From: a virus
Length of the DNA: 20,539 bases
IMG/VR virus record: IMGVR_UViG_3300033233_000189
Span: 1 to 20,539 of that record
Strand: one strand, 5' to 3'
In this document: piece after piece, positions 2,696-20,539 of the stretch
Layout: every line of letters starts with the position of its first letter
How positions within the stretch are numbered: the first letter of the stretch is position 1
Position numbers and translations under genes: made by a program
Notes under the pieces: model-generated
Seen by the model: only the letters and a program-made list of their open reading frames with translations
The model's database searches: none
Told to the model about the DNA's origin: nothing

Positions 2696-3917
2696 GTTTT
2701 TTTTGCGTATTTTCCGGCGCACACCTCCTCAAGTTCGGGCGGCTGATAGCATAAATTATATCAGCTCGCCCGACATTTTTAATTATCCTTATCTCAGCTT
2801 AAACCCTACCGCCGAGGCGTGCATCCGCAAGATAGTCTCGACGTTGGCATCGCTCAAGCTGGAGCTGTATACGCATCGCAAGGGCGGCGGGCGCTCGCTC
2901 ATGGTTGGACATCCGCTGTTTGTGGCGCTCAAAAACCCTGATCCAAACATGACCCCAATCCAGTTTTATTCGCAGCTTATCGACGACATCATGCGGGGTG
3001 ACGCCTATCTACACATTATTAGGGCTGGCGGGCAAATCCTTTTTGAGCGTTTAGACCCGCGTGCAATCAGACCGTCAAATCTGTCTGGCAGAATAGTCTA
3101 TCAGTACAGCCAGCAGACCTACACCGACCGCGACGTGCTCCATATCCCCTACCCGTTTGCGACCAAGATTGTCAACGGCATCGTCTATGGCGTAGCACCA
3201 GAAGAAAAATACCGCGACCTGATAGCTCTCGACAATGCGCTGACGGCATATATCAAAATGTACTTTGGCAACTCGATTGGCAAGCGTACCGTGATTGAAA
3301 TGGGCGATGCTTGGACGGGCAAAAAACTTGATGAGGCATATGCACTCATTGCGCCAGCAGTGCAAAAGTTTGTTTATGGTGCGGCGAATGCAGGTAAACC
3401 TATCATTCCGCCGCCTGGGACTAAATTAACAACACTTGACCAGACACAAAATCTCTATGCCGATATTAAGACGCTCAAAGAAATGGTAGAGCGGCAAATA
3501 TCACAAGGCTTTGGTGTGCCATACTCCCTGCTGTCCGAGACCAATAAATATGACTCTCTTGAAGCCAATCAGCTGCAATTTTTGGCCGATACTATCGAGC
3601 CATTGGGGACGCATATCGAGCAGTCGTTTGACAGGCTCTTAGACCCTACCGAGACCGCTCTGTACTGCAAATACGATTATAAAGCAATGCTGCAATCTGA
3701 TGTGAAAACCACTGTCGAATACCTTGCCAAAGAGGTGCAAGCCGGACTGCTCACCATTAATGAGGCGCGCGACAAGCTCGACCTGGCCGCGGTTGATGCT
3801 GGCGATTATACGTTTGTGCCGGCCAACTTGTGGCCGCTAACCGTTGATAACGTGCAAGCATTTTTCGCGCAGTCTAAGCTCGCCATGCATAATGGCGCAG
3901 GAGATCAAATGAAATGA
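2691..3917 (+). CDS. Portal protein (HK97 family)
   Basis: The 408-residue protein forms the dodecameric portal ring at the capsid vertex through which DNA enters and to which the tail attaches. Family-typical stretches are NPTAEACIRKIVSTLASLKLELY near the N terminus (start and end shown in part), HPLFVALKNPDPNMTP, the 'F...L..D....GDAYL.I' segment, and late in the protein GFGVPYSLLSETN followed by a long helix with 'SLEANQLQFLADTIEPLG'. Length is normal. The ATG at 2691 follows GAGGGA; the same start context recurs at 14822. The end overlaps the protease start by four bases (ATGA type), typical of coupled head genes. Confidence 0.93.
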   Translation: MAFFLRIFRRTPPQVRAADSINYISSPDIFNYPYLSLNPTAEACIRKIVSTLASLKLELYTHRKGGGRSLMVGHPLFVALKNPDPNMTPIQFYSQLIDDIMRGDAYLHIIRAGGQILFERLDPRAIRPSNLSGRIVYQYSQQTYTDRDVLHIPYPFATKIVNGIVYGVAPEEKYRDLIALDNALTAYIKMYFGNSIGKRTVIEMGDAWTGKKLDEAYALIAPAVQKFVYGAANAGKPIIPPPGTKLTTLDQTQNLYADIKTLKEMVERQISQGFGVPYSLLSETNKYDSLEANQLQFLADTIEPLGTHIEQSFDRLLDPTETALYCKYDYKAMLQSDVKTTVEYLAKEVQAGLLTINEARDKLDLAAVDAGDYTFVPANLWPLTVDNVQAFFAQSKLAMHNGAGDQMK

Positions 3918-4609
3918 AAAAGCAAATTCGCAAACTTGATTATCAATCTGAGATTACCATCCGTGATGCGACCGAGAGCGAGCCGCGCAAGCTAGTTGGA
4001 CTTATCCCATATAACAAGCCATCGGTCGACATAGGATTTATCGAGATTATCACGCCGACCGCTTTCGATAAGACCTTATCAGACCGCGCCGACGTCAAGG
4101 CCCTGGTATCGCATGACGCAAGCAAGGTGCTGGGCTCTGTTAAGGCTGGAACCTTGCGACTGACATCAACTGACAATGGTTTGCTTGCCGAGGTTGACCT
4201 GCCGAACACCACCTTTGCCAACGATGTTTGGGAGACTGTCAAGCGTGGCGATGTCACTACCATGAGCTTTGGATTTTACCCAGTCAACGAGCGCACGGAA
4301 GTCCAAAACGGGAAGGAAGTGCACTACCTGACCGAAGTTCGCCTACTTGAGGTTAGCTTTGCGGTCGCCTGGCCAGCCTATGAGGATACGACCAGCATGG
4401 CGAGGGCAGTGCGAGGCATTGACCTGGACAAACTCGAAACCGTGCTTGCCAAAGAAACTATCGAATCAAACGACCTTGCGGTCGTTAAAGATACCATTGA
4501 AAAGCTGCGGGCGCTGTTAGAGCCGAGCCCGTCCACCACCGAGGCCGCGCAGAGCACCTCGGCCGGAGACTTGCTGGCATCACTCTATGATGCGTCGCAA
4601 AAACTCTAA
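3914..4609 (+). CDS. Prohead protease (HK97 family, S78)
   Basis: The 231-residue serine protease matures the procapsid by removing the capsid protein's N-terminal scaffold. The expected catalytic elements are visible: VSHDASKVLGS with H67, the nucleophile motif TTMSFGF with S118, and a later acidic residue in RLLEVSFAVAWPAY (E146). The motif 'R.L.G..P' near residues 25-32 and 'ITP.AF' near 46-51 are also family marks. The last 50 residues are low-complexity (SPSTTEAAQSTS), typical of a self-removed tail. AGGAG at about 3898 is the likely ribosome site. The gene directly precedes the capsid gene, as in HK97. Confidence 0.93.
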   Translation: MKKQIRKLDYQSEITIRDATESEPRKLVGLIPYNKPSVDIGFIEIITPTAFDKTLSDRADVKALVSHDASKVLGSVKAGTLRLTSTDNGLLAEVDLPNTTFANDVWETVKRGDVTTMSFGFYPVNERTEVQNGKEVHYLTEVRLLEVSFAVAWPAYEDTTSMARAVRGIDLDKLETVLAKETIESNDLAVVKDTIEKLRALLEPSPSTTEAAQSTSAGDLLASLYDASQKL

Positions 4610-4620
4610 AGGAGACTACT

Positions 4621-5664
4621 ATGGCTGAAGAAGTCAAGACTGAAGCAAAGACCCCGGAGATTATGCTCCGCGAAATTGAAACCAATGTCGAGAAAAGAGT
4701 CGAGGAGAAAATCGAATCCTCGCTTGTCGAAAAGATTGATGCCAAATTCCGTGCGGCGCTGGCTGACCTAAAACCCAAGGTTGAGGTTGTCGGACCCGCA
4801 TCAGAGTACCGCGCAATCGCGCAGGCGATGGCTGAAAAGCGCGCGATTACTCTCAATGGCTCTGGCGCATACAAAATTGTACAGGACCTTGTGCAAGCTG
4901 TCATTAAAAAGCAAGACTTGCTCGCCAAGTACCGCTTTGAGTATGGCGCTGGCGCGCAGATGAATATCCCTGTACTATCTGCTCGGCCTGCAAAACCGAC
5001 AAAGCAATCTGAAGGTGCGACATCAATCACCGCTGACTCCACCGCGGCACTGGGCGCAATGACCTTGACACCGTATGCCTATGTGTCCGTCCTGCCCATC
5101 TCTGCCGAGGCTCTCGTACAGGGCGCGGCTGATATTGAGAGCAGACTGCCGCAGGTGTTTGGCGATTCTTTCGCCGATGCTATGCTTTATGGCTCCATAA
5201 TCGGCGACAGCACCATGACTGGCGTCTTTGCGGATGCTGCACTTTCGCAGGATGTGAGCTGCGCAGCGACCGGAGCTCCGACATGGGCTGACCTTATTAC
5301 TCTTGCTGGCGCAGTCAAAGGCTATGCATTTAGCCCGCTCATCATCATATCGCCGGCGCTTATGTCTGATTTGCTGGCAAATACCAGCACTGGGCTTGAC
5401 CCACTCAAAACCGAGTATCTCACCCGCGGCACAATCCGTGGCGTGCCGGTTTATGAAAGCGCTTATGCTCCATCCACTACAACCGCCGGCTCGGTTGTCG
5501 CGGTCGCAATGGACCCCGCCAATTATGCAATCGGTGTGGCCGCCGCGCTCAACATTATCCCGATTCGCAAGGCTGGCGATACCAATACCTACTTCCAGGC
5601 CGAGGCTTTCTTCAATGGCAAGCCAATCCTCGCCGCAAACGGCTGGCAGCTCAAGACTGTATGA
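4621..5664 (+). CDS. Major capsid protein (HK97 fold)
   Basis: The 347-residue protein forms the capsid shell. Residues 1-60 are charged and heptad-like (EIETNVEKRVEEKIESSLVE), matching the delta domain, the built-in scaffold that the upstream protease removes. The rest fits the HK97 fold, with a 'PVLSARPAK..QSEGATS' region, 'SVLPISAEAL', 'FGDSFADAMLYG' and the late 'RGTIRGVPVYES' and 'DPANYAIGVA' strands. AGGAGA lies just before the ATG at 4621. There is no fused decoration domain. The exact cleavage site cannot be read from sequence. Confidence 0.93.
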   Translation: MAEEVKTEAKTPEIMLREIETNVEKRVEEKIESSLVEKIDAKFRAALADLKPKVEVVGPASEYRAIAQAMAEKRAITLNGSGAYKIVQDLVQAVIKKQDLLAKYRFEYGAGAQMNIPVLSARPAKPTKQSEGATSITADSTAALGAMTLTPYAYVSVLPISAEALVQGAADIESRLPQVFGDSFADAMLYGSIIGDSTMTGVFADAALSQDVSCAATGAPTWADLITLAGAVKGYAFSPLIIISPALMSDLLANTSTGLDPLKTEYLTRGTIRGVPVYESAYAPSTTTAGSVVAVAMDPANYAIGVAAALNIIPIRKAGDTNTYFQAEAFFNGKPILAANGWQLKTV

Positions 5665-5673
5665 GGTTAGATA

Positions 5674-6210
5674 ATGGCACTGGTGACAGTTGATGATCTG
5701 AATGCATACTCTGGCAACTATGAGACTGCGGCATACAAGACTACTCTGGTTGAGGCCGCGTCCGATATCGTTGTCAAGTATCTTGGATATAATCCCTCGC
5801 AGGCCGAGCGGATATACCGCACGGTCGGCTGGGGGAACGATTTTGTCATCCTACCAGTGCCAGAAGTTTCAGTGGTGGCCAGTCTTGTCGTTGACGGCGA
5901 GACTTGGCCATCGACTGATTATCTTGCGATTGTTGACCCCGTGAGCGGCCGGACAAGGCTTGAGTTAATATCCAAAACATTTCTGCGCGGGGCAAAGATT
6001 GTCATCACCTACACTGCCGGATATGTTACCATCCCTGAGCCAATCAAATTGGCGGTCTTGCGCATTGCATCGCTCTTGACGACCGAGGCAAACGGCAATA
6101 TTGGCGTTACGAGTAAGAGCTTTGCTGATATGTCGCGCACTTTTGTCAACTATACCAATTTTGATAAATACCTTAAGCCGCTCGCGCGCTATCGCGCGGA
6201 GGAAATCTAA
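5674..6210 (+). CDS. Head-tail connector protein (HK97 gp6-like)
   Basis: The 178-residue protein probably forms the ring under the portal. It starts with a short helical repeat (VTVDDLNAYSG). After a strand-rich middle (FVILPVPEVSVVASLVVDG) comes the signature VITYTAGYVTIPEPIKLAV, followed by a helix and the 'GNIGVTSKSFADMSRTF' segment. 'YTAGY..(I/P)P..(I/L)K.AV' is a well-known mark of gp6/YqbG-type connectors. The position directly after the capsid gene agrees. The stop overlaps the next ATG (TAATG). Confidence 0.85.
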   Translation: MALVTVDDLNAYSGNYETAAYKTTLVEAASDIVVKYLGYNPSQAERIYRTVGWGNDFVILPVPEVSVVASLVVDGETWPSTDYLAIVDPVSGRTRLELISKTFLRGAKIVITYTAGYVTIPEPIKLAVLRIASLLTTEANGNIGVTSKSFADMSRTFVNYTNFDKYLKPLARYRAEEI

Positions 6211-11450: not shown

Positions 11451-14387
11451 ATGACGATTAGCATATTGGCAACCTGCGGCACAACGCAATATGACCTCTC
11501 AAGTTGGGTCATCAAGGACTCAATCAAGATAGATACGCATCTCTTTACCGACTCGCTGGAGCCGAATACCAACTCCGCCGAGTTTACCTTATCCCGCACC
11601 TGCCCATATATTGATGAGCTCTTGATATATAATGACGCAATCGGCGTGAGCATTGCGGCTGATGGCATAACCTACTTTACAGGCTACTTTACAGATTCTT
11701 TCAGATTTGCGATTACTTCCCGCGGCGCACAGGACGTCAAGATTGAGTGCGAGGATCCTGGTATCCGCAAGCTCAAAATTGCATGGGTATCAGCAGACGG
11801 CATTGGGACCACCTTTGCCGGCGATAAGATATGCGATCCCGCAGACACGACGCATTCGGTATTGCACAAGATAGCGACGCTATCAGGCGTAACGCTTGCA
11901 TCGGGCTTGCCGACTATTAGCCAGCAGGTCTACATGGTGGTCCTCGATAAGGATGGACAGACCTACTGGGATGTCTTAAGTAAACTACTCCTTGAGCATC
12001 TCTACGTTTTTGATTTTAATGCGGCTGGTCAGCTCTACTTGTTTGCCCTGACCGGCATGACGGGCTCGCCGGTACAGACCTTGACAACACAAGAGGGCAT
12101 TATTGGCGATAATTCGACGCCAGGCATCACAGTCAATAAGCGGCTCTATGATATCCGCGAGATTGACATTAAATTTGACGAGATAAGCACCATTGTCAGC
12201 GGCGTCGTCCATCGAGACACGACGGGGCAGACCGCAACTTATGACTGCCTTATCCCGATAGCTCCGGGGGCATATTATCCCGATACCTGCAACGCGGACA
12301 CCTACGCCTATATCGACTATAAGACCGAGGACGGGCGCGATGTTGTCATGGTCGACTCGGCGACGCTCGATGTCAGCAAGGACAGCGGCATCACGGCAGA
12401 GTTTGCTAACCTGGGCAAGTCCGCGAGGATCAGATTTTACAATGGCGGCGCTACGACGCAGTATATCTATCGCCTTAAGGTCAACGCCACCAATATCCGC
12501 GTCAAATCAGCTAACTCTAAAGTCATCGCAGGCGAGGCGAGCCGGCACAAGCGCGAGGTTGACGCGAGCACCATCACAACCAAAGCTGAGGCGCAGGCAT
12601 TTGGTAATCTGCTCTATTACTACTACAAAAACTCCAAGCAGGTATATCAATTTAACGGCTACCGCGGCTTACTCTATCCGTCAGAGATACTCTACCCATC
12701 AGAGACCTTGTATCCCAACGGCGACCTTATCGAGCCAGGCGAGATTATCCGGCTCTATGACCCGATTTTTACCGGCCTTGATGCGACTGTCATGGTCACG
12801 CGCAAGCGTTATACCCTCGGACGCAGTGGTGCAGAGTATGATGCTATCGGCATTGGGACGATAAGCCTTAACGACACGGTAGCACATTGGCAAACAGTGA
12901 CGCCGCCAACATTAATACCTGGCCCAACAGGACCACAAGGTCCTACCGGCCCGGCAGGGCAGCCTGCTATTATTGCCAACCTGTCAAACGAGAGTCACAC
13001 CGTACCCACTGATGCGAATGGCAACAATGGCAATTATACCGGTTGTGCCACCACCATGTCCATCTTTGTCGGCTCGACTGATGACTCGGCAAACTGGACG
13101 GTGAGCGCATCCCCATCAGCGGGGATAACTGGCTCTTTGTCAGGCAGGACCTATACTGTCACGAACATGACCACCGATACCGGCTACGTTGACCTGACTG
13201 CCAGCAAAAGCGGCTACTCGTCGATTACCTGCCGGTTTACCATTTCGAAGGCGAAGGGCGGGATTGCTTACATGCTTGTTGTGTCGGCAGCGGCAATCCA
13301 GAAATCGCAAAGCGGTACTTACACACCGAGCACGATAACTGTCAGTGCTAAAAGTGTTGCTTCAGCGGGGACTGTTGCAGACTATGCAGGCAGTTTTGTG
13401 ATTGCCGAGACGACCGATGGGACAACTTATACTGACAAATATACGTCCTCTGCAAACGAATCGAGCAAGACCTACACGCCGAGCGCCGGAATAAAAGCGC
13501 TTCGCTGCAGGTTGTATCTTGCAGGTGGAACAACAACTCTGCTCGATGAAGAGATTATTCCGATCGTCGTCGATGGCCCAACAGGGCCAACGGGGCCGCA
13601 GGGGCCAACGGGGCCGACCGGCCCCGCTGGCCAAGATGCACCGCATTACCTTGGGCTATACGCGTACTCAAGCAGAGCATCAATTACCGGCATGATTGCA
13701 AACGACCTTGTCGTTTTGTACTCAACTACGCAGTCTGAACGGGGAATCTATGCGTATATATCATCGTCCTGGACAAAACAAACGACACCTACGCAAGACC
13801 AAATCATGCGGTGTATGGTCGGCGTGCTCGATGCCGTCAGGCAGGGATATGGGCAATCATCAGACTATATCGGCACAGGAGCGACAAGTTTCGAGACTTT
13901 GCTTGTTAACTTTTTGTATGCGCAGCAGGCGTTTATTGATAATCTCTTGGTTAACAATGTTTATGCATCAATCTCTGCGGGTACAGTAGAGATAGTTAAC
14001 TATAATTATCCTGGAACAAATTTCAATGTGGGGAATACAAGCGGGGCCTATTATTCTGTTGGTAAAATAGCAAACAATAAAAACAATGCAATATTCTTTT
14101 TGCCAAAGATGTTATTAGTTAAAGGTACGGCAAATATAGACTTTACGTTATATGTATCAACAGCAAATATAGCTGTAACATTGCAATTGTACATAAATAG
14201 TACGCTTATTGGTAGTGTAAGCGTAACAGGAACAGGAAGTAATACTGTCAGTTTTTCTAATGTGTCGATTCCTGCTGGGGCATCGATGGATGTTAAATAT
14301 GCATCGAATGGATCAACAACAATTTCTTTTAGCGCAACATTTAAGGGCACAAATTTATCTCCACTGCTTTTAAATGTTGGAATATAA
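11451..14387 (+). CDS. Tail hub / fibre protein with collagen-like segments
   Basis: The 978-residue protein directly follows the tape measure, the place of the distal-tail and hub genes; no separate distal-tail gene is visible. Residues 1 to about 485 look like a hub core (DLSSWVIKDSIKIDT, 'SVLHKIATLSGVTL', 'GNLLYYYYKNSK', a triple YPSE/YPN repeat). A five-triplet collagen-like run starts at residue 491. Two Ig-like beta domains follow at about 510-705, then a seven-triplet Gly-X-Y run at 709-729. The next part, 'SYIGTGATSF' type sequence with 'LYAQQAFIDNLLV', leads to a C-terminal beta-rich domain from about residue 846. That last part is encoded by much more AT-rich DNA and is probably the receptor-binding domain. 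The collagen runs likely trimerise the tip. Confidence 0.8.
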   Translation: MTISILATCGTTQYDLSSWVIKDSIKIDTHLFTDSLEPNTNSAEFTLSRTCPYIDELLIYNDAIGVSIAADGITYFTGYFTDSFRFAITSRGAQDVKIECEDPGIRKLKIAWVSADGIGTTFAGDKICDPADTTHSVLHKIATLSGVTLASGLPTISQQVYMVVLDKDGQTYWDVLSKLLLEHLYVFDFNAAGQLYLFALTGMTGSPVQTLTTQEGIIGDNSTPGITVNKRLYDIREIDIKFDEISTIVSGVVHRDTTGQTATYDCLIPIAPGAYYPDTCNADTYAYIDYKTEDGRDVVMVDSATLDVSKDSGITAEFANLGKSARIRFYNGGATTQYIYRLKVNATNIRVKSANSKVIAGEASRHKREVDASTITTKAEAQAFGNLLYYYYKNSKQVYQFNGYRGLLYPSEILYPSETLYPNGDLIEPGEIIRLYDPIFTGLDATVMVTRKRYTLGRSGAEYDAIGIGTISLNDTVAHWQTVTPPTLIPGPTGPQGPTGPAGQPAIIANLSNESHTVPTDANGNNGNYTGCATTMSIFVGSTDDSANWTVSASPSAGITGSLSGRTYTVTNMTTDTGYVDLTASKSGYSSITCRFTISKAKGGIAYMLVVSAAAIQKSQSGTYTPSTITVSAKSVASAGTVADYAGSFVIAETTDGTTYTDKYTSSANESSKTYTPSAGIKALRCRLYLAGGTTTLLDEEIIPIVVDGPTGPTGPQGPTGPTGPAGQDAPHYLGLYAYSSRASITGMIANDLVVLYSTTQSERGIYAYISSSWTKQTTPTQDQIMRCMVGVLDAVRQGYGQSSDYIGTGATSFETLLVNFLYAQQAFIDNLLVNNVYASISAGTVEIVNYNYPGTNFNVGNTSGAYYSVGKIANNKNNAIFFLPKMLLVKGTANIDFTLYVSTANIAVTLQLYINSTLIGSVSVTGTGSNTVSFSNVSIPAGASMDVKYASNGSTTISFSATFKGTNLSPLLLNVGI

Positions 14388-14400
14388 AGAGGGAATGGCT

Positions 14401-14787
14401 ATGTTTTTTCAGGCAATTTTACTTGCGGCATCTATTGAGGCTGGAGTAATGAGCGGCGGCATTTATAACTATATGTCGCCCCCTAAAAAGGCATATGATT
14501 CAGCAAGGGTGTTATATACAAGTCTTGATGTACAAGCAAAATATGGCGTTTTTTATATTGGTGGCGGGATTACAACCTATATGTCGATGCAAGATATAAC
14601 AACATATTGGCCGTGGCAGAGCGATTATCGTATTGGTGCTGGACTTAAGATTGGTAATATGCAGATTGGATATGAGCATGAATGTTATCATCCTCAATAC
14701 CCATATCTAATGATTTTCAGGGAGCAATTTACGCCGAAATATGAAGGCGGGCATGACAAAATATTTATTCGCATAACGTCAAAATAG
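14401..14787 (+). CDS. Small beta-barrel-like protein with signal-like N terminus
   Basis: I place the start at ATG 14401 because AGAGGG (14388-14393) is seven bases upstream; an in-frame ATG at 14374 lacks a ribosome site. The resulting 128-residue protein begins with a short hydrophobic stretch (MFFQAILLAASIEAGVMSGG). It then shows alternating amphipathic strands with aromatic girdles (VLYTSLDVQAKYGVFYIGGG, YRIGAGLKIGNMQIGYEHE) and ends in a terminal strand (KIFIRITSK). This looks like a small outer-membrane barrel or a beta-rich surface protein. The conserved-looking 'GYEHECYHPQ' is unexplained. It lies in an AT-rich block with the hub C terminus. Superinfection exclusion or lysogenic conversion is possible; a tail accessory is the alternative. 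Confidence 0.6.
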   Translation: MFFQAILLAASIEAGVMSGGIYNYMSPPKKAYDSARVLYTSLDVQAKYGVFYIGGGITTYMSMQDITTYWPWQSDYRIGAGLKIGNMQIGYEHECYHPQYPYLMIFREQFTPKYEGGHDKIFIRITSK

Positions 14788-15733: not shown

Positions 15734-16123
15734 ATGAATATTGATTTTGCCTATAAACGCGAAAATTGCTTTGTGGTTTTTGAAGTCGGCTATCCGGCAG
15801 GATACTTGGTATACCAAGACGATGAGCGATATGCAGAAATTGAGGCATATCTGCAAGAGCATCCCGAAGCATTGAAAGATGAGCCGTTACCCCCACCGCC
15901 GAGCGATGCAGAACTGGAAGCCCAAGCCGAAGCCATAAGGCAAAGTCTTTTTGCCGAATATGACCTTGCGGTGAAACAGCATACTCGCTGGATTGCGCTG
16001 GGAATTGATAAAGATGACTCAAAACTGCTGGCATGGCATGAATATGCCCGACAGCTAGAACTAATCAATGACGTCGAGGGCTGGTACAAAGACCCACAGT
16101 GGCCGCCGAAGCCGGAGGCTTAA
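15734..16123 (+). CDS. Tail fibre assembly-like protein
   Basis: The 129-residue acidic protein follows the fibre gene with AAGGAGG just before its start. It has an N-terminal small alpha-beta part, a proline patch (PLPPPPSDAE) and a charged helical C terminus (AYDLAVKQHTRW-like) ending in 'DPQWPPKPEA'. The 'A.QQ..LLA.(W/Y)...(L)..I' pattern and late 'W...P.WP..P' are common in phage tail fibre chaperones. The call rests on position and this pattern. Confidence 0.6.
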   Translation: MNIDFAYKRENCFVVFEVGYPAGYLVYQDDERYAEIEAYLQEHPEALKDEPLPPPPSDAELEAQAEAIRQSLFAEYDLAVKQHTRWIALGIDKDDSKLLAWHEYARQLELINDVEGWYKDPQWPPKPEA

Positions 16124-16124
16124 C

Positions 16125-16445
16125 ATGCAGACCGCCATCGAGACTGCCATTGCGCTAGTAACGACCGCGATACTCACAGGCACATGGGCGATTGCGCGCA
16201 AGCGGTACAAATTGCTCAATCAACGGGATGAATTACTTGCAGAGGTGCAAAAAACGCTATCGGCGATGCGCGACGATAATCGTTGCCAGTATACCGCGCT
16301 TTTGGCGGTCATCGATGCGCAGGAACTGCAATTACATGCGCTCAAAGGGAAAAAGATGAATGGCGATGTTGATGACGCATTGGCAAAAATCCGTGTAGCG
16401 CGCGAGGAAATCCAGGCGCATCTTGTGGAGGTAGGGTGCAAATGA
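16125..16445 (+). CDS. Membrane-anchored coiled-coil protein (lysis region)
   Basis: The start is ATG 16125 behind GGAGG (16114-16118); a longer frame from 16068 only overlaps the previous gene. The 106-residue protein has one N-terminal membrane segment (about 4-23, AIETAIALVTTAILTGTWAI). It is followed by a basic stop and a charged helical region (NQRDELLAEVQKTLSAMRDD) and a second helix with 'ALAKIRVAREEIQAHLVE'. Such proteins in lysis cassettes include XhlA-like holin helpers. No motif settles its role. It overlaps the next gene as ATGA. Confidence 0.55.
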   Translation: MQTAIETAIALVTTAILTGTWAIARKRYKLLNQRDELLAEVQKTLSAMRDDNRCQYTALLAVIDAQELQLHALKGKKMNGDVDDALAKIRVAREEIQAHLVEVGCK

Positions 16446-16840
16446 ACACACAATCAATTTGCAAAAAAATTGGCGACTCTGGATGCTATTTTATCTCATT
16501 ACTAAAACTTGTAAATGCGGATTATGCCGCTATTGGAATGTATCAAAAGGCGCTCGCGGCAAAGATCATCGATGAGGACTGCTTTGTGCAAGACCCTGCT
16601 GGGTTGCTGGCATTGGCGGCGGGCGGACAATGGGACGTCCGGCACGAAGATGCCAGCTATCAGACCAAGCGCAATGAGTGGGAAATCCTGCGCTTTGAAC
16701 GCAAAGAGGCAACAGTAACGTATGCGCACTTTGTCGTTGGCGATGGCTATGGGCGTGTCGCCTATGACCCTCTCGATGATTCGCGCACGGTTGCCGAGGG
16801 GAAACTTGTGTCCAAGCGTATCATCACGAGGCTGTCATGA
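16442..16840 (+). CDS. Putative cysteine peptidase / endolysin candidate (DUF261-like)
   Basis: The 132-residue protein starts at ATG 16442, overlapping the upstream stop; GGAGG at 16427-16431 fits. An N-terminal 'KKIGDSGCYFISLLKLV' puts a cysteine at a helix start, a later 'TYAHFVVGDGYGRVAYDPL' gives a histidine strand and an aspartate, the order of a papain/C39-like Cys-His-Asp enzyme. The pattern resembles DUF261 proteins known to me from spirochaetes and phages. Set between membrane proteins in the lysis region, it is the best endolysin candidate, although no signal peptide is present. Function is inferred. Confidence 0.6.
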   Translation: MNTQSICKKIGDSGCYFISLLKLVNADYAAIGMYQKALAAKIIDEDCFVQDPAGLLALAAGGQWDVRHEDASYQTKRNEWEILRFERKEATVTYAHFVVGDGYGRVAYDPLDDSRTVAEGKLVSKRIITRLS

Positions 16841-17205
16841 GCGCAGGCTATACGCAGGAGCAGGACGGTTCCAAGTCGATGCGCAGACTATTGGCGCTCT
16901 ACTATTCGCTCTTGTCGGGCGCATTGCTGATAATCGGGGCGCTATACGGCACAACGGCAGGTATCTATGGCGGGCTTGGCTGCGCGCTGGTGGTGCTAGT
17001 GCTGCTAGGATTGACGACTATCAGCGATATTAAAGGGATCAACTATCAAGCAATATTTAATGGTTCAAACTATCCGGAATCTCCGGATACTTCGCGCGGC
17101 GTAAAATCTGTCAGCGAACTACCAAAATTACGCCAAAATTTGGACACTAAACTGACAGAATTTAGTGGCTCTAATAAGGAAGAGCCATATAGGGCTGGAG
17201 ATTGA
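16837..17205 (+). CDS. Holin candidate with two membrane segments
   Basis: The 122-residue protein overlaps the peptidase stop as ATGA. Two hydrophobic segments are clear: LLALYYSLLSGALLIIGALYG (about 18-38, shown in part) and GLGCALVVLVLLGLTTI (about 46-62). The rest is a hydrophilic C-terminal tail with lysines (KLRQNLDTKLTEFSGSNKEE), so both ends are probably cytoplasmic, as in class II holins. Its position next to the peptidase candidate supports holin. The last 130 bases contain three perfect inverted repeats (see findings). Confidence 0.6.
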   Translation: MSAGYTQEQDGSKSMRRLLALYYSLLSGALLIIGALYGTTAGIYGGLGCALVVLVLLGLTTISDIKGINYQAIFNGSNYPESPDTSRGVKSVSELPKLRQNLDTKLTEFSGSNKEEPYRAGD

Positions 17206-17218
17206 TGTGGGAGGAACT

Positions 17219-17434
17219 ATGAAAATTAAGCTGATTTTTGATGATGGGTCGGAAACAGAAATTACTGAGCAGGGGTTGAAAGGGTTACTGGAAGTATTGA
17301 AGGATGAAAATAAAAAGGAGGTAACAATAATGCCATATGTTACCCCGTGGTATCCAAATACATATCCTTATACTACTTGGAAAGATTCAACCGGAACGTG
17401 CCATTATGAATTACATGTAGCGTATTGGAGGTAA
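17219..17434 (+). CDS. Small protein gene with a second internal start
   Basis: The 71-residue frame begins at ATG 17219 behind GGGAGG (17209-17214). The first half is a small strand-helix unit (MKIKLIFDDGSETEITEQGL). An in-frame ATG at 17330 has a stronger ribosome site, AAGGAGG (17315-17321) eight bases upstream, and would give a 34-residue tyrosine- and tryptophan-rich peptide starting MPYVTPWYPNTYPYTTW. The gene may make two products, or the N-terminal part may act as a leader. I do not recognise the family. Confidence 0.6.
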   Translation: MKIKLIFDDGSETEITEQGLKGLLEVLKDENKKEVTIMPYVTPWYPNTYPYTTWKDSTGTCHYELHVAYWR

Positions 17435-17435
17435 C

Positions 17436-17759
17436 ATGAATGACAAAATCGGCAAAGATATTGCTATCATTATTGCTTGTATTTTGCTTGTTGTCGCCGC
17501 TTTCGGCGCAATCGTCTATTCCCACGAGCTGGGAGCAGTTCGACGCCTTAATAGTGAGCTTGCGGAGCGAAATCGGCAGCTTGAACTCACAGCTAATGAG
17601 TATCAACAGCGACTTGACTCAATCGCAAACCGAGTTACAAGCGCTCAAAATGCGGTTAGCGGAGCGGGAGACAGCGTATCAAAACTTAGAGCAATCGTGG
17701 ACGCAATTGCTGCAATCTCAAAAGACTTGCGAAAGCCGCTTGCAGTCAATCAACCTTAA
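17436..17759 (+). CDS. Rz-like inner-membrane spanin candidate (frame A)
   Basis: The 107-residue protein has an N-terminal membrane segment (IAIIIACILLVVAAFGAIVY, about 9-28) and then a long coiled coil (RRLNSELAERNRQLELTANE). This is the classic layout of an i-spanin (Rz), which spans the periplasm to disrupt the outer membrane. GGAGG at 17427-17431 lies four bases before its ATG and eight before that of frame B. It overlaps frame B from 17440 to its own end. It starts one base after the previous gene's stop. Spanin function is inferred from topology; family membership is not proven. Confidence 0.6.
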   Translation: MNDKIGKDIAIIIACILLVVAAFGAIVYSHELGAVRRLNSELAERNRQLELTANEYQQRLDSIANRVTSAQNAVSGAGDSVSKLRAIVDAIAAISKDLRKPLAVNQP

Positions 17760-17826
17760 ATTTGGCGTTTCTGTTGCGATAAATTTGGCGCTTATCGGTG
17801 GGGTTCTATATTTAGTTTTCCACTAG
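17440..17826 (+). CDS. Signal-peptide/coiled-coil/TM protein overlapping frame A (spanin-like, frame B)
   Basis: The 128-residue protein, +1 relative to frame A, starts with a signal peptide (AKILLSLLLVFCLLSPLSA) whose likely signal peptidase I site follows A23. A coiled coil comes next (about 40-100, with 'LRSEIGSLNSQLMSINSDLT'), then a C-terminal membrane segment (FGVSVAINLALIGGVLYLVF). C16 is preceded by L-V-F, so there is no proper lipobox. An exported N terminus plus a C-terminal anchor resembles the topology of single-protein spanins, apart from the missing lipobox. Its stop is only eight bases before the next gene, and it fills the DNA after frame A ends. One or both frames may be translated. 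Confidence 0.6.
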   Translation: MTKSAKILLSLLLVFCLLSPLSAQSSIPTSWEQFDALIVSLRSEIGSLNSQLMSINSDLTQSQTELQALKMRLAERETAYQNLEQSWTQLLQSQKTCESRLQSINLKFGVSVAINLALIGGVLYLVFH

Positions 17827-17834
17827 GAGCAATA

Positions 17835-18614
17835 ATGCCAAAAACAGGTATCATTATATCCGATTTCCACTGCGTGCATCTTTTTGGCCTTACGCCACCT
17901 GACTATCAGATCAGCCCTGACGATGACCGACAATTAGGCAAGGCTGCCGAGTGGCAGCAAAAAACATGGGATTGGTATTCTGAGCAGGCAAAGGCTATTG
18001 GGCACATTGACCGGCTGATATTCAACGGCGATGCGATTGACGGTATAGGCGCAAAATCCGGCGGCACTGAACTCATCACGACCGACCGGCGGCGGCAAGT
18101 GCAAATGGCGAAAGCCTGCGTTGAGGCTTTTAGTTATGACGCTATTACCGTTATTCGTGGCACAGCCTATCACACCGGAGAGCAAGAGGACTGGGAGGAC
18201 ATTCTCGCTGACATGCTTGGTACACATGCTCAAGACCATGCTTGGTTAGAGTATGCCGGGTGCGTGCTGGATTTTAAGCATCACATCGGTTCGACAAGCG
18301 TTCCTGGCAATGCACCGCCATCCCTAGGGCGCGAGGCGATTTGGAACCTGCTCTGGGCGGAAAAACAGTTACAGCCAAGGGCAAACGTGATTATCAGATC
18401 ACACTTGCATACCTACTGCTATACCGGACAAGATGACTGGCTGGCAATTGTAACGCCGGCCTTGCAGGGCTGGACTAAATATGGAGGCCGAAGGATGAGC
18501 AAGACTATCTCCTTCGGCTTTTTGTATTTTGAGATTAGCGACAAGGGGGAATTTTTATGGCGACCGCATCTCCTAGTGCCGACCTTCGCGGCGGCGCAAG
18601 CAGAAGCACTATAA
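17835..18614 (+). CDS. Metallophosphoesterase (calcineurin-like)
   Basis: The 259-residue protein carries the metal-binding set of the calcineurin-like superfamily: SDFHCVH (D10, H12), NGDAID (D66, D69), 'IRGTAYHTG' (H113, where the usual GNH[DE] is altered to GTAYH), H149/H150 in DFKHHIG, and RSHLHTY (H190, H192). The fold should bind two metals and hydrolyse a phosphoester. Substrate is unknown; phage relatives may act on nucleic acids or signalling nucleotides. AGGAG precedes the ATG. The 3' end overlaps the next gene by 58 bases. Confidence 0.85.
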   Translation: MPKTGIIISDFHCVHLFGLTPPDYQISPDDDRQLGKAAEWQQKTWDWYSEQAKAIGHIDRLIFNGDAIDGIGAKSGGTELITTDRRRQVQMAKACVEAFSYDAITVIRGTAYHTGEQEDWEDILADMLGTHAQDHAWLEYAGCVLDFKHHIGSTSVPGNAPPSLGREAIWNLLWAEKQLQPRANVIIRSHLHTYCYTGQDDWLAIVTPALQGWTKYGGRRMSKTISFGFLYFEISDKGEFLWRPHLLVPTFAAAQAEAL

Positions 18615-18835
18615 AATTCGACGGCTCCGAAGAGGACTATCAGAGGATTTTAGAGGCTATACAAGCCCTTCCGGACAAAAACTCGCGGAGCATCAAATGG
18701 AATCCGAGGCTCGATGAGCTATTGGTCAAATATTATCCAATCAAGCGCAAAAAGGAATTGGCGCGCTTTTTTGGCGTGTCGGATCGCTCGCTGTATCAGC
18801 ACTACATGGAGCTGACAGAGGGAAAACATGAGTGA
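18557..18835 (+). CDS. Small helix-turn-helix protein
   Basis: The 92-residue protein starts at ATG 18557 behind AGGGGG, inside the end of the metallophosphoesterase gene. After a low-complexity N terminus, residues 50-86 read 'RLDELLVKYYPIKRKKELAR' and 'FFGVSDRSLYQHYMEL'. The latter is a convincing helix-turn-helix, with a basic first helix and 'GVSDRSLYQHY' as recognition helix. It is a likely DNA-binding protein: a late-gene regulator or a terminase-related factor are both possible. Confidence is good for the motif and low for the role. Confidence 0.7.
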   Translation: MATASPSADLRGGASRSTIKFDGSEEDYQRILEAIQALPDKNSRSIKWNPRLDELLVKYYPIKRKKELARFFGVSDRSLYQHYMELTEGKHE

Positions 18836-19139
18836 TTGTTTCATGGCGGCTGAGACAATGCAAGAAAAGATTACAAAGACCTGCAATGGTGTAGCGCGCC
18901 TGCTTATCGGCAAGAATGAGCGCTACGGCAATAGTGCTTTGGAGCCTATAAGAGTGTTTTCCAATGTTGACGCGGATGTTGGTCTCTTAGTGCGGCTCGA
19001 TGACAAGCTCGCGAGAATCAAATACGCGTCAAGTAACCATAAACCATTGCGCAGAAATGATATAGTCGATATGACAGGCTACCTGATTTTGTACTGCGTC
19101 AAGCAAGGATGGACGGATTTTGACGACCTGATTGATTAA
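18828..19139 (+). CDS. Nmad1-like (DUF1599-type) phage protein
   Basis: The 103-residue protein matches the pattern of a phage family related to Nmad1 (nucleotide modification associated domain 1): 'LLIGKNERYGNSALEPIRVF', then VRLDDKLARIKY, and 'RRNDIVDMTGYLILYC'. The 'KN..YG.SA', 'R.DDKL.R' and 'D..GYL' elements are all present. The biochemical role is not established. It is the last gene of the rightward late operon; it overlaps the previous stop and is followed by the repeats and terminator described below. Confidence 0.7.
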   Translation: MSDCFMAAETMQEKITKTCNGVARLLIGKNERYGNSALEPIRVFSNVDADVGLLVRLDDKLARIKYASSNHKPLRRNDIVDMTGYLILYCVKQGWTDFDDLID

Positions 19140-19143
19140 CTTT

Positions 19144-19213
19144 TATGCGCCGGCGTGTATAGTCTATGCGCCGGCGTATAGGCGCATATAAGGCGTGTAT
19201 AGACAATGTATAG
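19144..19213. repeat. Phased GTATAG repeats and a hairpin
   Basis: GTATAG occurs at 19157, 19176, 19197 and 19208, spaced 19, 21 and 11 bases, so roughly whole helical turns. Three copies sit in GCG(TG)TATAG. An 8-bp perfect inverted repeat, TATGCGCC (19165-19172) with GGCGCATA (19181-19188), overlaps them. Further copies lie at 19397, 19863 and 20317. They could be protein-binding iterons, for example integrase arm or regulator sites. Confidence 0.5.
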
Positions 19214-20241: not shown

Positions 20242-20266
20242 GCCCCGCTTCGGCGGGGCTTTTTTT
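20242..20266 (+). terminator. Terminator between the KGG gene and the integrase
   Basis: A perfect stem GCCCCGC-TTCG-GCGGGGC (20242-20259) with a stable UUCG loop is followed by seven T. It ends the rightward two-gene unit and meets the end of the minus-strand integrase gene, whose stop lies in the T-run. Confidence 0.9.
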
Positions 20267-20539
20267 ATATTTCCACCTCTCGCGCGACTTGCGAGAGGTC
20301 ATATAATTGGCGGTGCGTATAGTTATCTTGTATCGCCGCGCCCGACCAGCCGAAACTTGCCCGCAGAAGGTCATCTGGCAAGCCTTTGCCGCGTAGATAT
20401 GTGTTGAGACTATGCCGGAGCATATGGAGTGTCACTGATATATCGGCACGTTTCGCCGCGCGCTCAACCTCGGCAGACCATGCCCAATATGATAATGGCG
20501 TATCGCCTCCAAAGACAAAACCTGCCGGCTGTCGCAGGG
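20265..20539 (-). CDS. int: Tyrosine integrase, C-terminal part (5' end outside window)
   Basis: Reading the minus strand, the frame is open from the window edge to the TAA at 20265-20267, giving about 91 codons. It contains 'VTLHMLRHSLNTYLRGKG', the H-x-L-R-H box with catalytic H and R, then 'DDLLRASFGWSG' with the tryptophan that often replaces the second histidine, and 'NYTH' with the nucleophile tyrosine. Integration and excision of the phage DNA is the expected role. The N-terminal arm-binding and core-binding domains lie beyond the window. Confidence 0.92.
   Translation of the reverse strand, partial: LRQPAGFVFGGDTPLSYWAWSAEVERAAKRADISVTLHMLRHSLNTYLRGKGLPDDLLRASFGWSGAAIQDNYTHRQLYDLSQVAREVEI

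Follow-up and report, generated by a model that had tools for sequence, protein, structure and literature searches.

The window, by which we mean the whole stretch of 20,539 bases analysed here (IMG/VR record IMGVR_UViG_3300033233_000189), carries terminase, portal, HK97-type protease, capsid and tail genes and, downstream of these, two small genes, A and B, that occupy nearly the same bases in different frames. Gene A (17436-17759, + strand) encodes 107 aa with a short N-terminus, a transmembrane (TM) helix at residues 9-27 and a coiled coil, an i-spanin-like layout. Gene B (17440-17826, +) lies in the +1 frame of A and encodes 128 aa, predicted to comprise a signal peptide, a helix or coiled coil of ~100 residues and, at the C-terminus, a TM segment; the part of B past the stop of A (17760-17826, +) is essentially this C-terminal TM helix (FGVSVAINLALIGGVLYLVFH). 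The two ATGs are 4 nt apart (ATGAATG) and have in common the Shine-Dalgarno sequence GGAGG at 17427-17431 (+), 4 nt before the ATG of A and 8 nt before that of B. Re-derivation from the sequence returned exactly the coordinates given in the original prediction, and its claims of one GGAGG for both starts and of tight packing were borne out: the ATG of A is one base past the stop of the upstream ORF (17432-17434), and the next gene starts (17835) eight bases past the end of B.

Upstream of the pair lie a 71 aa ORF (17219-17434, +), a gene for a holin-like membrane protein of 122 aa (16837-17205, +), a DUF261 gene in the endolysin slot (16436-16840, +) and, directly before the latter, a gene for a small protein with an N-terminal TM and a coiled coil (16068-16445, +, start perhaps 16125). 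The 71 aa ORF (MKIKL-FDDG-ETEITEQGL...) is also found in L017, a distant relative described below (5319-5552), and is absent from four close relatives; our reading is that it is a mobile or accessory gene. Elsewhere in the window, 14374-14787 encodes a secreted-looking protein of 137 aa between tail genes, which had no family match and by eye resembles a small outer-membrane-barrel-like protein. By eye again, 20265-20435 (-) resembles a tyrosine integrase C-terminus, and on that basis the phage is probably temperate. As for the host, DUF261 may point to spirochaetes. Scanning of genome contigs with A and with the holin gave no match, and neither did a search of named phages with the DNA of 16801-19200, the holin, DUF261 and the B protein of L017. 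The terminase and portal had matches in named phages at <60% identity, scattered over many hosts.

We examined the two proteins by hydropathy and pattern-based calls of TM segments, signals and coils. In all relatives A shows a single TM window, at the N-terminus, as in a type II i-spanin, in agreement with what was originally proposed for it; the predicted TM helix (residues ~9-27) is followed by a helix with coiled-coil periodicity, and the model of the window protein is helical to residue ~99. The predictions for B likewise agreed with the proposed signal, coiled coil and C-terminal TM and with the lack of a canonical lipobox. Its signal-like N-terminus runs up to PLSA/QS or PLTA/QS, a site that includes a Pro, and PLSA/QS is likely cleaved by signal peptidase I. 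In the AlphaFold2 model B is one helix (29-127, pLDDT 88-97 over most of it) and is not beta-rich. The C-terminal TM helix of the window protein is at residues ~109-127. In five of six loci the codons of this helix lie almost wholly past the stop of A (partly overlapping in L004), so B's hydrophobic tail is mostly no by-product of A's codons. Since positive residues precede this helix and none follow it, a type I topology for B is uncertain. The cysteines of A are mostly limited to Cys15 in the TM, and Cys97 of B is found in three close relatives and is absent from L004, L008 and L017; A and B thus do not show the periplasmic cysteines for intermolecular disulfides expected of two-component spanins. 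PHROG searches gave weak matches, and coiled coils hit many unrelated families with comparable E-values. In these searches A matched phrog_214 'Rz-like spanin' in 6/7 members (best 1e-4) and the window B matched phrog_1193 'hemolysin' (E 2.7e-4) over its coil and C-terminal TM, the only one of six B members to do so. PADLOC and NCBIfam matches were to generic coiled coils, and a PDB search gave no relative of use.

Four close relatives (L002, L003, L004 and L008) came from IMG/VR scans in which A, B and alignments of these proteins served as queries; their identities to the window are 53-75% for A and 50-68% for B (50-75% overall). All five sequences retain the two open frames across the overlap and the two ATGs, and none of the other four frames is free of stops in any of them. 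L008 has an in-frame insertion of 21 nt, by which A and B are both longer. The only frame break is in B of L002, beyond the end of A. Apparent single-base frameshifts are seen in L002 both there (4340-4442, the C-terminus of B) and in its M15 gene (3158-3805); the contig comes from a 454+Illumina enrichment-culture assembly (PMC5029510), and the frameshifts are probably sequencing errors.

More distant relatives were best reached through the holin-like gene, an alignment of which retrieved L017 and L019, the latter with phage genes on its flanks. Downstream of the holin both have the same layout, an A with an N-terminal TM and coil and a B with a signal, coil and C-terminal TM. In L017, A (5549-6100, 183 aa) and B (5553-6173, 206 aa) start with ATGAATG and overlap by 545 nt; in L019, B (2120-2572, 150 aa) has its ATG 5 nt before that of A (2125-2505, 126 aa) and the overlap is 378 nt. 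B lies in the +1 frame of A at all loci, starting at +4 or -5 nt relative to A, and the two-protein stretch spans about 320-550 bases across the phage group. Profile comparison with the window pair gave a weak match for B of L017 (probability 77%) and no homology support for L019, and a search for further relatives of L017's B found none. As A/B sequence homology is weak or undetectable, the kinship of L017 and L019 to the window rests on the holin and gene order; either their A and B are extremely diverged, or the layout has evolved on more than one occasion. The search for the pair in related phages, suggested with the original prediction, thus gave seven cassette loci counting the window, with both frames open in all of them. 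Homologues with one frame broken, which would have spoken against that prediction, were sought, and none has a stop within the overlap in either frame.

Length alone proved a poor guide to dual coding. In the window, 240 of 3541 107-codon gene stretches (6.8%) are open in +1, and its larger genes contain three further off-frame ORFs of 155-174 aa on the sense strand; with long off-frame ORFs this common, we rejected ORF length as sole proof, and homologues were needed. When the window codons were shuffled with one protein kept and its own codons used, the other frame was open with a probability of 0.02-0.09, and at about 0.002 with window-wide codon usage. For L017, the other frame was open in 0/5000 shuffles with A kept and in 4/5000 (0.08%) with B kept.

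Substitution patterns in the close relatives were then compared for each frame. Differences in the overlap are even over the codon positions of A, whereas neighbouring genes are third-position-heavy: 43/30/37 versus 25/18/79 for L004-L008 (Fisher p 3.5e-6) and 41/29/36 versus 35/22/83 for window-L008 (p 1e-4), with p 0.012 for window-L003 and 0.021 for window-L004, values that are not independent because the pairs share one tree. Per site, changes that alter both proteins (NN) occurred less often than those leaving A or B unaltered in 10/10 pairs (NN/SN 0.34-0.95, NN/NS 0.25-0.84). We also held one protein fixed, redrew its synonymous codons at the rate of the holin and scored the other frame. 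In most pairs this other frame was more conserved than the null, with 0-2 of 2000 draws matching it in the 107-codon pairs; the test was weak for L008 with the window and with L004 (z 1.5-2.4), pairs whose holins are unusually similar. The substitution test proposed at the outset thus detected constraint in A and in B. Together with the absence of stops from the overlap, this removes the earlier doubt that one frame is accidental, and on these comparisons A and B are almost certainly a dual-coding pair with both frames kept by selection.

We found that gene order in the loci examined is a small TM-coil protein, endolysin, holin-like protein, then A/B. The endolysin slot is held by DUF261 in the window and in L003 (3280-3702), by an M15 peptidase in most of the other relatives (L008 and L017 by Pfam, L002 and L004 as read from the sequence) and by an M23 peptidase in L019; from its place in this slot, DUF261 may itself be a peptidoglycan-degrading enzyme. 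Endolysin and holin precede A/B in 7/7 loci, the placement of a two-component spanin, with the holin label itself weak (2/7 members matched PHROG holin phrog_565). The gene after A/B varies, and the linkage to the holin is strict in all seven loci. Because the endolysin type is swapped while the holin and A/B stay linked, a lysis module is supported, and we consider it likely that A/B functions in one. Small TM-coil proteins also stand before the endolysin in L003 (2942-3283), L008 (3858-4202), L017 (4133-4522) and L019 (978-1283); their sequences differ between some of the phages while slot and layout recur, and they are possibly another lysis component.

The original prediction had set B apart from normal Rz1 proteins and normal u-spanins alike, and this holds. 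A strict lipobox, as required of an o-spanin, was found in none of the B proteins; a relaxed one (LFAC) is present in B of L002 and L003 only and not in the window, L004, L008 or L017. A six-frame scan for an export signal plus lipobox, checked on lambda Rz1 and Lpp, gave no convincing lipoprotein gene in the lysis regions of the window and six related records, though this was a crude scan of possibly incomplete records. Antisense and signal-less lipobox matches were rejected as no credible genes. Judged as a unimolecular spanin, B has the C-terminal TM domain but neither the lipoylation signal nor the beta-rich domain. With no conserved lipobox and no lipoprotein gene nearby, B is neither a standard o-spanin nor a standard u-spanin.

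On balance, we favour A/B as a dual-initiated, non-lipoprotein spanin-like pair at the end of the lysis cassette. Ribosomes at the single Shine-Dalgarno would start at either ATG, and one binding site with two starts would give two exported coiled-coil proteins at a linked ratio. The N-terminal TM helix would hold A in the inner membrane. B would be exported with a signal peptide that is then cleaved off, and its C-terminal helix would serve as the anchor; in the periplasm the two proteins would probably pair through their coiled coils. Their position and the layout of A make the last step of lysis the likely task of A/B: after holin and endolysin have acted, the pair would break the outer membrane without a lipoprotein. 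We put such spanin-like disruption, which assumes a diderm envelope, at slightly better than even. The C-terminal helix of B may sit in the inner membrane (type I) or may reach the outer membrane; both A and B may be inner-membrane anchored, and the proposed mechanism gives no route to the outer membrane. Somewhat short of an even chance, in our view, is the broader proposal that the pair is a third, lipoprotein-free outer-membrane disruptor, made of overlapped, dual-initiated type II and type I coiled-coil proteins with a stoichiometry set by one ribosome site.

Several other explanations were weighed against this one. That a single frame is the gene, and the other an accident of U-rich TM and coiled-coil codons, gains from the 6.8% of open +1 stretches and the three long off-frame ORFs in the window; it is very hard to reconcile with two frames open in 7/7 loci, with indels that keep both, with differences spread evenly over codon positions, with an NN rate lower than SN and NS in all pairs and with a TM tail of B outside A, and we regard it as highly improbable. 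Alternatively, B might be a lipoprotein after all, lipidated at an atypical lipobox (Cys15/16). In a host that accepts relaxed lipoboxes, A/B would then be a conventional two-component spanin, or B itself a u-spanin. All five close relatives have Cys16, LFAC of L002 and L003 fits a relaxed lipobox, and Kongari 2018 (PMC6139136) verified an odd lipobox, AWAC. Yet Phe precedes Cys16 in the window, L004 and L008, B of L017 has no Cys at all, the hydrophobic run does not end at Cys16 but extends to an A/Q site typical of signal peptidase I, and Cys16 overlaps the TM codons of A, which leaves a lipoprotein improbable.

Two further readings leave the outer membrane aside. A/B could regulate the holin or endolysin, as an antiholin, XhlA-like accessory or timing factor; the pair adjoins the holin, the window B weakly matches phrog_1193 'hemolysin' (E 3e-4), and Kongari's criteria need a lipoprotein that B does not supply. 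However, Rz-like spanin is the best-supported PHROG family of A (6/7 members), B carries a signal peptide and matches phrog_1193 in just one of six members, and another TM-coil protein already stands beside the endolysin, so we think a regulator unlikely, if less so than a lipoprotein. Some other membrane function parked beside the lysis genes, such as superinfection exclusion, would suit the facts that most functional labels are inferred and that A and B lack a strong family match; against it stands the strict holin linkage in 7/7 loci while the endolysin swaps and the downstream gene varies, and we give it little credence. A non-lipoprotein spanin-like pair is the reading that we retain. Beyond the original prediction, the analysis adds the endolysin-holin context, the distant relatives of the same layout, the finding that most of B's TM is encoded beyond the overlap, and the failure to find a convincing lipoprotein gene nearby. 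With near-coincident starts and selection detectable in both frames, A/B is a compact test case for dual coding, one of whose members gene callers that penalise overlap are likely to drop.

Compared with two-component spanins such as lambda Rz/Rz1, as treated in Kongari 2018 (PMC6139136), A/B is likewise a pair at the end of a cassette with the second gene in the +1 frame. A, like an i-spanin, is a type II coiled-coil protein with an N-terminal TM, and B continues beyond the stop of A, which is also the case in the 'overlapped' class of that paper. The pair differs in that the starts are 4-5 nt apart with one Shine-Dalgarno for both, whereas about 70% of embedded o-spanins are there said to start at 0.4-0.5 of the i-spanin gene, and in that B is a non-lipoprotein, helical, with a C-terminal TM helix. 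B resembles the unimolecular spanin of phage T1 (gp11) in its N-terminal export signal and C-terminal TM, but is predicted to be all-helical, has no conserved lipobox and has an i-spanin-like partner. Haemolysin XhlA-like proteins (phrog_1193) are small coiled coils with a C-terminal TM; one of six B members, that of the window, matches this family (E 2.7e-4), and B also has a signal peptide. Adjacent out-of-frame starts (AUGUG/GUGUG) behind one Shine-Dalgarno initiate both frames in E. coli (PMC9841429); here the arrangement is ATGAATG or a 5 nt spacing, and both products are long and conserved. Finally, spanin searches demand a lipobox, and in Kongari 2018 (PMC6139136) a spanin was not found in about 13% of the surveyed Gram-negative phages. 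The section of that paper on spanin-less phages names a type I (N-out, C-in) i-spanin as possible without considering it further. B, with its predicted exported N-terminus and C-terminal TM, fits this topology and is a candidate for such a protein, differing from the type proposed there, for which that section gives no example, in being paired with a type II partner.
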